Part shown: one piece after another, positions 40,022 to 53,476 of the stretch
How the letters are laid out: every line of letters starts with the position of its first letter
Position numbering within the stretch: position 1 is the stretch's first letter
NCBI GenBank assembly: GCA_017938285.1
Contig: JAGBBW010000103.1
Span: 1-54,498 of the forward strand
Source: Lachnospiraceae bacterium
Lineage (GTDB): Bacteria; Bacillota; Clostridia; Lachnospirales; Lachnospiraceae
Length of the DNA stretch: 54,498 nt
Reading direction: 5' to 3'
Translations under genes and position numbers: made by a program
The notes under the pieces: generated by a model
What the model saw: only the letters and a program-made list of their open reading frames with translations
Told to the model about the DNA's origin: nothing
Databases searched by the model: none

Positions 40022-40050
40022 TTGAATATTTATGAACGTTTTGGTATAAT
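40022..40050 (+). promoter_or_regulatory. sigma-A promoter of the hydrogenase-like sensor gene
   Basis: TTGAAT (40022-40027), 17-base spacer, perfect TATAAT (40045-40050), giving a leader of about 60 bases. Confidence 0.75.
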
Positions 40051-40116
40051 AAATACAACTAATTTTTCTGACTACACCTATGTAAAAACCTACTCCAAGG
40101 AGGGACTACCCATTAT

Positions 40117-42042
40117 ATGCGTCCGAATACATTAATCTATACCAACGATAACTGCCAGGGCTGCAACCGCTGTATTTCTGTCTGCCCGGTTCTGACCGCC
40201 AACTACTCCGTACCATCAAAGGACGGTGATAACCGCCGCATTGAAGTACATAGTGAAAACTGCATCAGCTGTGGTGCCTGCTTTGATGCCTGTGAACACC
40301 AGGCCCGGAGTTTTTATGACGATACGGAACAGTTTTTTCATGATTTAAACTTAGGAAAACAGATTTCCGTCATTCTCGCACCAGCTTTCAAAGCCAACTA
40401 CCCGGATCAGTACGAACAGGTACTGGGTGGACTGAAAAAAATGGGCGTCCGGCATATCTACAGTGTCAGCTTCGGTGCGGATATTACTACCTGGGCTTAT
40501 ATTAATTACATTACAAAGCATAAATTCCAGGGAGGTATTTCCCAGCCATGCCCTGCTGTTGTAAATTATATCGAGCACTACGAACCAACACTGATAGAAA
40601 AACTGATTCCTATCCATAGTCCTATGATGTGCACTGCCATCTATATCAAAAAATATTTAAAGAATAATGACAGTCTGGCCTTTATCAGCCCCTGCATTGC
40701 CAAAAAAACTGAGATTACCGACCCAAATACCCAGGGATATGTCTCCTACAATCTGACCTTTTCCCATCTGATGGCCTATGTCAGAAAACACAACCTTTGG
40801 GGAAATAAAGTATCCGATGAAACAAACTATGGTCTCGGCTCCATCTATCCAATGCCGGGAGGCTTAAAAGAAAATGTTTACTGGTTTTGTGGTGAAGAAG
40901 TATTCATCCGGCAGGTAGAAGGTGAGAAACGTGCCTATGAATTTTTACGGGACTACCAAAAACGTGTCCAGACTGGTTCCACTCTTCCATTTATGGTAGA
41001 CATTTTAAACTGTGACAAAGGCTGTCTTTACGGAACCGGAATCGAAGAATCCAAAAATCATTCCGAAGACAATTACTATGCGATTGAAAAAATCAAAGCC
41101 CGCAGCAAAACGAAGGGTATGTTTCATCCATTCTCACGCCTTCTGTCCCCGAAACAGAGGCTGCGGCTGCTGAACCTGAAATTTGCAAGACTGAACATTC
41201 GGGATTTTATGCGCAGCTATACCAATAAATCCGGTATGATTTCCCTGCAGCAGCCTGCCCCAGCAGAATTAAATACCGTATTTAACCAGATGGGTAAACA
41301 CACACCAATGGAACGAAACATCAACTGCGGCGCCTGTGGCTACAGCAACTGTACTGAAATGGCCTCTGCCATATTTAACGGATGTAATACCCCCGCCAAC
41401 TGTATTCATTATATCAAAAATGAAGTACAGCAGTTTTCCAGGCAGCTGGAACTCCAGAACAGTACCATCCTGAAAAAAAATGAAGAACTGGCACATTTTA
41501 TTGCAGAAGATTTTGAGTCCCTGAATACCTCTATTAACGGAGTAGTCCAGGGCAATATGGTAAATGCCGAAGAAAGCAGTGCCATTAATGCCGCTATGCA
41601 GAAAATATCGGACTTCTGCAGTATTCTGGACGCTTCTTTTTCTGAAATCCAGGAACTGCTGCACCAGCTTGAAAAGAATAACGAGTCGATCTCCAAAATT
41701 GCAGACCAGACCAATATTCTTTCGTTAAATGCTTCCGTAGAAGCTTCCCGCAGTGGTACTGCCGGAAAAGGTTTTGCAGTTGTTGCCGGTGAAGTACGTT
41801 CTCTGGCAGAAGCCAGCCGTACCATGGCGGAACAAAGCGATTATAACCGGTCAGAAATTGTGCAGGCGGTTCAGTCCTTAATGCAGAGAACCGAAGAACT
41901 GACCCACTCCATCACCGATATCAACGACCGGCTGACAAATCTGGCTACCAGCACCCAGGAAGTTCTTGCAGAAGCCGATGTGGTAAAACACATTTCCGGC
42001 ACAGTAAAAAACCGACTGGAAGAACTGAACCGGAACATTTAA
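40117..42042 (+). CDS. [FeFe]-hydrogenase-like / chemoreceptor-signalling fusion protein
   Basis: A 641-residue soluble protein without membrane helices. Domain order: (1) two ferredoxin-type [4Fe-4S] sites (Cys 13/16/19/23 and 49/52/55/59); (2) a domain like the [FeFe]-hydrogenase large-subunit C-terminus, about 80-330, with counterparts of the three H-cluster motifs: QPCPA (Cys-145), SPCIAKKTE (Cys-193) and NCDKGC (Cys-299/303); (3) a small Fe-S domain with CGACGYSNC and a distal Cys (404-429); (4) a coiled coil leading to an MCP signalling tip (about 527-570: [35 protein letters not shown]). The H-cluster motifs are degenerate (no TSCCPxW, no GGG in motif 3), so H2 sensing or redox sensing is more likely than turnover. 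The tip predicts output through CheA/CheW. AAGGAGG lies before ATG. Single-gene unit. Confidence 0.88.
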
Positions 42043-43981: not shown

Positions 43982-44857
43982 ATGAATAAGTTTGATTTTG
44001 CAATCGTGGGTGGTGACAAACGTACAGCACATATGTCATCTATATTATCCAGAAAAGGATACCGTGTTGTCTGCTTTGGCACTTCAGAAAACTTTACTGA
44101 CAACACAATAGCTACCGCCCATACCTTACAGGAAGCAGTTACGAATGCCTCCATTATTGTTTGCGGTATTCCATTTCAAAAAAATGGCTGTCTCTATTTT
44201 GAAAAAGAAAACTCCAGCATCCCACTCTCTGAATTACAGCGGGTACTCAGAAAACACCATACGGTATTTGGTGGTATGATACCGGAAGATTTCAGAAAGA
44301 TATGTGAAGCCCGTGAAATTGCCTGTTACGATTTTTTGTCAGAAGAACCCCTGACCATAAGAAATGCTGTTGCGGCAGCAGAAGGTGCCATTATAGAGGC
44401 CTTATTACACAAAGATACCCTGCTCCACCTAAGCAAAACCCTTGTTCTCGGCTATGGCAGATGTGCAAAGGTTCTGGCAGACAAACTGAAAGGACTTTCT
44501 GCACAGGTCACGGTCTGCTCTGAACAGCCTCTGGAACTTGCCTACGCCCACTCCTTAGGGTTTCCTGCCTTTCCTTTATCTGAATTACAGGAAAAAATCA
44601 ACTGTTTTGAATATATATTTAATACCATTCCCTCAAAAGTCCTTACAAAAAACTGTCTGGAACAAATGCAGACCGACAGTCTGATTATTGACATCGCCTC
44701 TAACCGGATCGGCGTTGATTATGAAGCTGCCCGTCTGCTGCAAAGAACTGCCATTTTCTGCCCTGGACTGCCTGGCAAATATGCCAGCCTTAGTTGTGCA
44801 GAACAATTGACTGAATTTGTTTTAAAAAACGCCAAAAAACCTGGCAGTCATCATTGA
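43982..44857 (+). CDS. dpaA: dipicolinate synthase subunit A
   Basis: The NAD(P)-dependent subunit of dipicolinate synthase (SpoVFA), which makes the spore-core chelator dipicolinic acid from the lysine pathway. 291 residues, near the family length. The N-terminus has FAIVGGDKRTAHMS and the second dinucleotide fold has TLVLGYGRCAKVLADKL. AGGAG lies eight bases before ATG. Followed by dpaB after 30 bases. Confidence 0.93.
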   Translation: MNKFDFAIVGGDKRTAHMSSILSRKGYRVVCFGTSENFTDNTIATAHTLQEAVTNASIIVCGIPFQKNGCLYFEKENSSIPLSELQRVLRKHHTVFGGMIPEDFRKICEAREIACYDFLSEEPLTIRNAVAAAEGAIIEALLHKDTLLHLSKTLVLGYGRCAKVLADKLKGLSAQVTVCSEQPLELAYAHSLGFPAFPLSELQEKINCFEYIFNTIPSKVLTKNCLEQMQTDSLIIDIASNRIGVDYEAARLLQRTAIFCPGLPGKYASLSCAEQLTEFVLKNAKKPGSHH

Positions 44858-44887
44858 ATCCCTAAAATTGCAGAAAGGAATCCTATT

Positions 44888-45475
44888 ATGAATCTTAACG
44901 GAAAAAAAATCGGAGTTGCATTAACCGGCTCTTTTTGCACCTTTGAAAAAATGTTTTTGGAACTCCAAAAACTCAGGAATGCCGGTGCAGACATCTATCC
45001 TATTTTATCTAACGCTGCCCAGTCTATTACCAGCCGCTTTGGAACTCCCGAACAGTATAAAGAAAAAATCAAAGAAATCACCGGTAAAGAACCGATTATC
45101 TGCATTGAAGGTGCGGAACCGATTGGCCCAAAGGGATATCTGGATGTCCTCACCATTCTTCCCTGTACCGGAAATACCGCAGCAAAACTTGCCAATGGAA
45201 TTACAGACACTCCTGTTTTAATGGCAGCCAAGGCACATCTGCGCAATAATAAACCTCTTGTCATTTCCATTTCCACCAACGATGGGCTTGGAATGAACAT
45301 GAAAAATATCGGTCTTTTACTGAATTCCAAAAACATCTATTTTGTACCTTTCGGACAGGATGATTTTGAAAAGAAACCAAACTCTCTGGTTGCCCACACG
45401 GAACTTCTCATTCCTACACTGGAAGCAGCACTGGAACACAGACAATACCAGCCGTTACTTCAGTCTTACCACTAA
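44888..45475 (+). CDS. dpaB: dipicolinate synthase subunit B
   Basis: The flavin-type (UbiX-like fold) subunit SpoVFB. Landmarks are VALTGSFCTFEKM, PILSNAA, ILPCTGNTAAKLANGITDTPVLMAAKAHLRN and PLVISISTNDGLG. 195 residues, full length. It partners with DpaA to oxidise the heterocycle to dipicolinate in the mother cell. Next gene after 45 bases is asnB. Confidence 0.93.
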   Translation: MNLNGKKIGVALTGSFCTFEKMFLELQKLRNAGADIYPILSNAAQSITSRFGTPEQYKEKIKEITGKEPIICIEGAEPIGPKGYLDVLTILPCTGNTAAKLANGITDTPVLMAAKAHLRNNKPLVISISTNDGLGMNMKNIGLLLNSKNIYFVPFGQDDFEKKPNSLVAHTELLIPTLEAALEHRQYQPLLQSYH

Positions 45476-51952: not shown

Positions 51953-53476
51953 CTACACTTCCAGTATTTTTTCCAATTCTGTTATCATATCATTGATGCT
52001 GTCTACCTGTTTCAATAACGTTTTCACATCCTCTGCATTATTTTGTACCATGCCCGCAATATTAGCAAATTCTGTATTTTCTCTGGTAATACTTTTTACA
52101 ATATCTTCATTAATCGATACTGTTTCCTGAATCGCCATATTCTGTGTATTGCGGATATGGTCTGCCTCATTCACAGCTTCCACTGATTTTTTCAACAGTT
52201 CCAGCATCATACGTATGTCTTTTACTGTATCCACAATAAGTTTATTCTGTGCCATCAGCTGTTTTGCATTTTCATTCATAAACTCAGAAACTTCCGTTGC
52301 TCCATTCTGCACACGGGCTACCACATTCGTTACATTTTGCAGCGAATTTTTGGTACTGGCAGCGAGATGCCCTACTTCCTGCGCAACTACTCCAAATCCT
52401 CTTCCAGCTTCTCCTGCACGTGCTGCCTCGATGGACGCATTCAAAGAAAGTAAATTAATGGATTCCGCAATCTCATTAATAATATCCAATGTCGCACCTA
52501 TTTCGCCAGATTCCTGTAAAAGTTTCTCCGTTACTTCCCTTGTTCTGTTAGTAGAATTTTCCACTTCTTCACTCATTGCCATCAGATTATTCAACGCCTG
52601 TTCGTTAGACACTGAAATATCTACTAACTCTTTGGAAATCTGATCTACATCCAACATTTTCCGCTCCATGTGCTGACTGCTCTCTTCCAGATCCACCAGA
52701 TTCCGTTTACTCTCTTTGGATTTTTCCATCATGTTCGTATTACTTTCCAGTAATACTTCACTAATTGCAGAAAGTTCCTCTGTCGATGTTCTTTCTTTCT
52801 GAGTTGTTTCCACTAATGCATTACTGGCTTCTCCCAGCTGCCCCAGTACAATAGTTACCTTATCCAATAACATATTGACTCTCACATTATTTTTTTCCAG
52901 CTGTTCCTTTTTTACATTCAATAAAAACTTGTTTATAAAAATAACAAAAACAATTACCCCAAAAATACTTAAGGTAATGCAGATAATCCGCAGTATTGCA
53001 TCTGACCAGAAGAGATTCTCCACCGGATGTGTGACTGCATTAAACATAAATAAAACAATCAAAGAAACAACTTCTGCCACACCACATTTCACCACAAAGG
53101 CTATATCCAGAAAAAATGACATCAGTATAATAAAATAAAACACAAACATCCACGATTCTTTTGAAGGAAAGAACCATGTAATCATATTGATATTAAGAAT
53201 TAATATCAGCAACAAATAATTTTTCACAAAACTTTCCAGGGAATGAGATAACGTCTCCTGTTTAATACTTTGCCTGATTAGATATATCCCTACTATATCC
53301 TCTGCTACAATAAGAGCTATGAAAATTCCACATATTGCCATAGAAACTGTCGGATATAGTCCCATCAATGTCATACCTGGAAGCACCACTGCTGCGGCTG
53401 TAGCGCTAAAACAAACGATTGCAAGAACTAAAATTACTACTTTCTTTCTGTACTCCTTTAAAAGTTCTTCACCCAT
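51953..53476 (-). CDS. methyl-accepting chemotaxis protein with multi-pass membrane sensor
   Basis: A 507-residue chemoreceptor. The N-terminal 190 residues form about six membrane helices with no large extracellular domain. There is no clear HAMP. A long coiled coil carries the signalling tip NEIAESINLLSLNASIEAARAGEAGRGFGVVAQEVGHLAASTK. Ligand unknown; it may sense membrane or internal state. AAAGGAGG lies before ATG. Confidence 0.92.
   Translation of the reverse strand: MGEELLKEYRKKVVILVLAIVCFSATAAAVVLPGMTLMGLYPTVSMAICGIFIALIVAEDIVGIYLIRQSIKQETLSHSLESFVKNYLLLILILNINMITWFFPSKESWMFVFYFIILMSFFLDIAFVVKCGVAEVVSLIVLFMFNAVTHPVENLFWSDAILRIICITLSIFGVIVFVIFINKFLLNVKKEQLEKNNVRVNMLLDKVTIVLGQLGEASNALVETTQKERTSTEELSAISEVLLESNTNMMEKSKESKRNLVDLEESSQHMERKMLDVDQISKELVDISVSNEQALNNLMAMSEEVENSTNRTREVTEKLLQESGEIGATLDIINEIAESINLLSLNASIEAARAGEAGRGFGVVAQEVGHLAASTKNSLQNVTNVVARVQNGATEVSEFMNENAKQLMAQNKLIVDTVKDIRMMLELLKKSVEAVNEADHIRNTQNMAIQETVSINEDIVKSITRENTEFANIAGMVQNNAEDVKTLLKQVDSINDMITELEKILEV

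Follow-up and report, generated by a model that had tools for sequence, protein, structure and literature searches.

A soluble chemoreceptor with a hydrogenase-like sensor module tracks chemotaxis genes, not H-cluster maturation genes, in the Lachnospiraceae

Introduction

What does a chemoreceptor sense when its input module resembles an [FeFe]-hydrogenase and its genome has no detectable means of maturing the hydrogenase cofactor? The question is raised by one open frame of 641 aa (40117-42042, + strand) in a Lachnospiraceae genome, within a stretch of 54,498 nucleotides that is called the window below. The initial annotation of this frame proposed a sensor of H2 or redox state that signals through CheA/CheW. 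HydDB lists a kind of this sort as group C2, 'Chemotactic (putative)', states that its role is undetermined, and proposes H2 sensing (PMC5037454). In the open-licence papers that we searched, chemoreceptor-type members are neither the subject of a biochemical study nor said to be without maturases; in Clostridium acetogens, group C2 candidates are described as being among those discarded by catalytic-subunit checks (PMC9431212). The receptor is real and well conserved and, as far as the literature searched shows, belongs to a kind that has been named and is uncharacterized. Surveys tally group C2 genes as sensory hydrogenases, e.g. in a rumen study one cattle breed is reported to have them at 3.2-fold higher abundance (PMC10811737), and such counts would not be a measure of H2 sensing if many of these proteins were without a diiron site.

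Domain architecture of the sensor protein

Pfam and motif scans agree with the initial annotation on the parts of the protein, i.e. two ferredoxin-type sites, an H-domain, a further Fe-S domain and an MCP tip. The two ferredoxin-type [4Fe-4S] motifs lie in a Fer4_10 match at residues 7-59 (40135-40293, + strand; E 1.2e-9), and are the two CxxCxxCxxxC motifs of the protein, starting at residues 13 and 49 (C13/16/19/23 and C49/52/55/59). The H-domain (Fe_hyd_lg_C, PF02906) covers residues 82-306 (40360-41034, + strand) and scores 116.7 bits against a cut-off of 22.1. A Cx2Cx4Cx16C cluster motif (C404, C407, C412 and C429; 41326-41403, + strand) is matched exactly within an FeS match (PF04060, residues 402-430, 27.6 bits against a cut-off of 23), and the signaling domain (MCPsignal, PF00015) occupies residues 509-631 (41641-42009, + strand; 74.7 bits against a cut-off of 34.6). 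The maximum mean hydropathy (Kyte-Doolittle, 19-residue windows) is 1.14 and therefore no membrane segment is indicated, so the whole frame can be described as a soluble chemoreceptor with an [FeFe]-hydrogenase-like sensor module, as had been proposed. Among NCBIfam models, that of the group B1 hydrogenase matches best, with 141.8 bits far under its cut-off of 450.

Two N-terminal [4Fe-4S] motifs with a C-terminal Cx2Cx4Cx16C motif make up the layout described for groups C and D, and the latter motif is described for sensory [FeFe]-hydrogenase subclasses (PMC8163306); the sensor protein has this layout. It also has an H-domain with cluster cysteines in L1, L2 and L3, PF00015 fused on the same chain, and CheA and CheW in its own genome, as expected of a methyl-accepting chemotaxis protein. 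Judged by its predicted domains, its layout is that of HydDB group C2 and it is probably a member of that named kind. For group C2 the proposal is an H-domain protein that works via methyl-accepting chemotaxis proteins, and here the two are one polypeptide; the difference is that HydDB suggests H2 sensing, whereas here the maturases were not found in the draft genome.

Residues of the H-site

Alignment to solved hydrogenases places cysteines at all three H-cluster motif positions, as the initial annotation had read them. Cys145 in L1 (SQPCPA; 40549-40551, + strand) aligns with CpI C300, the second cysteine of TSCCP, with P144 on the first. Cys193 in L2 (SPCIAKKTE; 40693-40695, + strand) falls on MPCxxKxxE and aligns with CpI C355. 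In L3 (LNCDKGC), Cys299 (41011-41013, + strand) and Cys303 (41023-41025, + strand) fall on CxxGC, in low-scoring side matches only, and align with CpI C499 and with CpI C503, the bridging cysteine in enzymes. All four are Cys in 81/81 close-family rows and in a paralog in the same genome, and because they are kept across 80 relatives from other genomes the pattern is not due to chance.

The motifs had been called degenerate. This is correct for the surroundings of the diiron site, where CpI C299, M353 and M497 are replaced by P144, S191 and L297, and incorrect for the four cluster cysteines, which are intact. The idea that the altered pocket excludes a diiron site, and with it the use of the altered motifs as an argument against an H-cluster, was dropped, since TamHydS is reported to have the same Leu/Ser at the M497/M353 positions, to be active once artificially matured and to turn over H2 (PMC8163306). 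CpI M497L is described as being without a properly integrated diiron unit, and Pro at the C299 position as occurring in ∼10% of HydDB sensory hydrogenase sequences (PMC10055695). Because TamHydS shares the Leu/Ser pair and ∼10% of sensory hydrogenases share the Pro, the pocket is uninformative, and in our analysis its residues appear to favor neither an empty site nor a diiron site.

That the protein is a catalytic hydrogenase with an incidental MCP fusion is hardly credible. Its PF02906 score is well over the cut-off, but the proton-relay position (CpI C299) is Pro in 81/81 close-family rows, which sets the sensor protein and all its aligned close relatives apart from group A catalytic enzymes; the maturases were not found in its own draft genome, and fusion of an MCP domain to an H-domain recurs in dozens of genomes.

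A more serious alternative is a genuine H2 sensor, in which a complete H-cluster would be reduced by H2 and the change relayed to the MCP domain. The invariance in the close family of the four H-cluster cysteines and of the lysine aligned with CpI K358 argues for it, as do the Leu/Ser changes shared with TamHydS, the exact Cx2Cx4Cx16C motif of the sensory subclasses and a Tyr at the F417 position, which TmHydS is also reported to have (PMC10055695). Three residues suited to a diiron site (K196, E199 and Y244) are invariant even in maturase-less genomes. In the MCP-A rows, mean conservation of the pocket columns (33 positions picked by the analyst, with four rows from genomes having a partial maturase set excluded) was 0.978, against an H-domain mean of 0.763-0.774, and was equal in the 25 maturase-less rows (0.978) and the 18 full-maturase rows (0.978). 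At 202 of the 225 H-domain positions the commonest residue was identical in the two sets. Equal pocket conservation with and without maturases is as expected if the cofactor is independent of them.

TmHydS (group C, Thermotoga maritima) resembles the sensor protein further in having two N-terminal clusters and a C-terminal Fe-S domain (PMC13104023, PMC8163306) and an H-domain without the proton-relay cysteine (PMC10055695). As described in these sources, it differs in that a PAS domain stands at the C-terminal end in place of the MCP domain, in that it has Ala/Gly/Ser where the sensor protein has Pro/Ser/Leu, and in that its genome encodes three [FeFe]-hydrogenase types. TamHydS (group D, putative sensory) shares the Cx2Cx4Cx16C motif in addition to the Leu/Ser pair (PMC8163306, PMC13104023); unlike the sensor protein, it is described as having no PAS or MCP part, as encoded upstream of a bifurcating hydrogenase, and as a protein for which uptake of the diiron unit has been demonstrated.

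H-domain proteins, maturases and chemotaxis genes in the same genome

The draft assembly amounts to 3.2 Mb (154 contigs, completeness 86.7%), and its contig 90 is identical with the window. It contains 39 matches to the sensor protein: the protein itself, one full-length paralog, and 37 other MCPs that match from residue 373 onward. PF02906 is found in the sensor protein and the paralog only. The paralog (L002; contig 89, 1492-3387, - strand) is 45% identical; at the C172 position it has Ala, in contrast to the Cys found in 81/81 close-family rows. Two CheA-CheW clusters are present, one with a CheC-like gene and the other with an MCP, so the proposed signaling partners, on whose presence the initial annotation depended, are both encoded.

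The initial annotation had found no maturation genes nearby, and a search for hydE, hydF and hydG across the whole draft genome (86.7% complete) found none either. HydE gave no match at E 1e-60. The best HydF match reached 99.9 bits over the GTPase part only; a lax HydF search of 22 genomes showed a clean gap, with four positive genomes at 558-579 bits and the remaining eighteen at 102 bits or less. The best match to the HydG model (180 bits) was rejected as HydG, as it is ThiH by TIGR02351 (511.5 bits).

Co-occurrence across the family

We searched 298 genomes of the family, evenly drawn and, except for the sensor's own, at least 90% complete. The sensor protein (P0001) had matches in 84 genomes at 1e-30 and in 60 at 1e-50, and the latter 60 were taken as carriers. 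HydG was detected in 133/298 genomes (1e-75), HydF in 164/298 (1e-50) and HydE in 166/298 (1e-60), and 128/298 had none of the three. CheA was present in 58/60 carriers as against 93/238 non-carriers (p=7e-18, with kinship ignored, as in all of these co-occurrence tests), in line with the proposed signaling through CheA/CheW. CheA is missing from two carriers (G042 and G069), in which all three sensors that were fetched end in histidine kinases.

Maturases behaved differently. They were all missing from 29/60 carriers and 99/238 non-carriers (p=0.38, kinship ignored), and carrier status was also unrelated to maturases within CheA-positive genomes (p 0.24-0.50), whereas among genomes with a HydS-type protein only 3/27 had no maturase, as against 125/271 of the others (p=0.0004, kinship ignored). 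The sensor tracks chemotaxis genes, not H-cluster maturation, and this is the new part of the analysis. Three maturase-less carriers that are 99-100% complete, in 60-280 contigs (G195, G212 and G287), each yield one PF02906 match only at 1e-10, and each has a sensor with an H-domain and an MCP domain; genome G000 has two PF02906 matches, which are both sensors. Since maturases were not found genome-wide and the sensor is independent of them in the family, redox is favored over H2 as the stimulus. Of the two stimuli named in the initial annotation, redox state is thus the one toward which the claim narrows, and H2 sensing is less likely than redox sensing.

These observations bear directly on the H2 sensor outlined above. 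All three maturases are present in the genomes of 18/46 MCP-A rows, but they are undetected in the sensor's own genome and in nearly half of the carriers, the three near-complete genomes have a single H-domain protein and no maturase, and the statistical tie seen in the HydS-type family is missing. We regard H2 sensing as a real possibility of which we are doubtful.

The absence of HydE, HydF and HydG alone is no proof of an empty H-site, because maturase-less genomes keep intact group-A-like hydrogenases. A PF02906 protein is present in 110/128 maturase-less genomes (29/29 carriers and 81/99 non-carriers). Among 31 loci read for motifs (the 30 top-scoring PF02906 places plus one from G241), eight belong to maturase-less genomes (G144, G184, G127, G079, G048, G181, G112 and G241; loci L126, L128, L136, L140, L141, L145, L147 and L152), and the group-A-like proteins of these genomes have intact L2 and L3 motifs in 8/8 cases. 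The G241 protein closely resembles the bifurcating HydA1 whose structure is solved (entry 7q4v), and both have the TSCSPGW motif. Either these hydrogenases are empty too, or an unidentified maturation route exists. If the latter, a diiron unit or other cofactor could reach the sensor by the same undescribed route that serves the hydrogenases of its maturase-less relatives. The eight intact proteins are consistent with such a route, as is the detection of HydE and HydF but no HydG in 31/298 genomes, among them the single-contig G267 and G194, whose best HydG-model matches (172 and 190 bits) stay below the cut-off of 312. In G195, G212 and G287, however, the sensor would be the only protein for such a route to serve, and we consider the route unlikely.

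Relatives and output domains

In the genome collection 164 relatives were confirmed, of which the best 80 were kept. By their printed titles these are mostly Lachnospiraceae, some from goat, water-deer and other gut samples, and their best segments are 55-77% identical over almost the full length. Among plasmid records, one of 2.6 Mb from Acetoanaerobium noterae encodes a relative that is 36.8% identical across 94% of the protein, and a second, weaker relative comes from Ruminococcus albus. In a quick tree built from 105 sensor modules, a HydS-type clade (n=27, SH-aLRT 98) was separate from a chemoreceptor-type clade (n=74, 99); the tree has long branches and four outgroup rows that did not group together.

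Long forms are scattered within the chemoreceptor-type clade. Fifteen rows were classed as long form and nine were scanned for output domains (eight, then L212): five end in a histidine kinase (L166, L157, L159, L160 and L212), three in GGDEF and EAL domains (L158, L170 and L169) and one in EAL alone (L168). L185, a long form outside these nine, has the MCP tip motif. The one MCP-B protein scanned ends in MCPsignal, and the one HydS-type protein scanned has no output domain. The sensor module thus appears, from these predicted domains, to be portable between outputs.

At least one long-output relative, an 873-aa protein in a genome without detected maturases (L156, G207), is without one of the L3 cluster cysteines. 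Such a loss would fit a vestigial receptor, whose Fe-S domains are no more than structural remnants and whose MCP part is constitutive or driven by a partner. Against this, the close family shows no variation at the cluster cysteines, and conservation of the pocket columns is well above the H-domain mean, which makes a vestigial receptor very improbable.

A proposed Fe-S redox receptor

The data are most simply read as an Fe-S sensor with four cubanes that drives an MCP hairpin, i.e. an [FeFe]-hydrogenase module re-used as the input of a cytosolic chemoreceptor. Most likely the protein would bind four [4Fe-4S] clusters of the ordinary kind, of which two belong to the ferredoxin-type motifs, one to the H-site and one to the Cx2Cx4Cx16C domain. 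Apo-hydrogenases made without HydEFG are reported to retain the [4Fe-4S] part of the H-site (PMC6984386), and a point on four [4Fe-4S] clusters in PMC8163306 was counted for the cubane-only reading; the C-terminal cluster of TamHydS is described as not being reduced by H2 (PMC13104023). The stimulus would be the redox state or integrity of the clusters, as determined by reduced ferredoxin, by some other donor inside the cell, or by oxidants, e.g. O2. The signal would pass from the C-terminal Fe-S domain to the MCP hairpin and alter CheA activity, and cells would steer by redox conditions; we infer the direction of the response, as we do the cluster content and the stimulus. In our judgment there is about an even chance that the protein serves chemotaxis as an Fe-S redox sensor and that its H-site, in this organism, contains a cubane but no diiron subcluster.

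Aer, with its FAD-PAS module, is a redox or energy chemoreceptor. As proposed here for the sensor protein, it couples an intracellular redox cofactor to an MCP output; its sensor fold is unrelated. If the redox reading is true, strict gut anaerobes gain a cytosolic redox receptor for swimming, and the protein is a natural case of an H-domain retained without its catalytic half.

Extended to the family, the same reasoning suggests, tentatively and at slightly worse than even chances, that Lachnospiraceae group C2 proteins are largely not H2 sensors. In this view the hydrogenase fold would have turned into a redox sensor that relies on Fe-S clusters alone. It would have been coupled time and again to outputs of the chemoreceptor, histidine-kinase and GGDEF/EAL types, and would survive in lineages that have no genes for H-cluster maturation.

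Upstream region and genomic neighborhood

Read by eye, the sensor gene is preceded by a promoter-like TTGAAT-N17-TATAAT (40022-40050, + strand) and a ribosome-binding site, AAGGAGG (40097-40103, + strand). A motility-type sigma-28 promoter was rejected, as a search of 80 upstream regions (those of the sensor gene and relatives) for sigma-28-like motifs gave matches no better than those in shuffled sequences.

When the loci of the 80 relatives were surveyed together with that of the sensor gene (81 in all), 21 neighbor families were found at four or more of them. The ten commonest, with one protein of each scanned, include glycoside hydrolase 3, SHMT, homoserine dehydrogenase, LUD, PALP, carbamoyl-phosphate synthase, arginyl-tRNA synthetase, QueH and one family without a match. 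None of these ten is a hydrogenase or chemotaxis family, and a functional gene neighborhood was rejected on this ground. An amino acid kinase with an ACT domain, another of the ten, lies directly upstream of the sensor gene at 35 of the 81 loci.

In the window itself, one flank of the sensor gene holds a response regulator, an ABC transporter ATPase, a protein without a Pfam match and a histidine kinase, and the other a VanZ-like protein and, further off, dipicolinate synthase genes. The latter (43982-45475, + strand) are dpaA (243 bits, slightly below the cut-off of 261) and dpaB, next to an asparagine synthase gene, and their predicted products suggest spore formation. A further MCP-like match lies at 52307-52486 (- strand), inside a 513-aa open frame.
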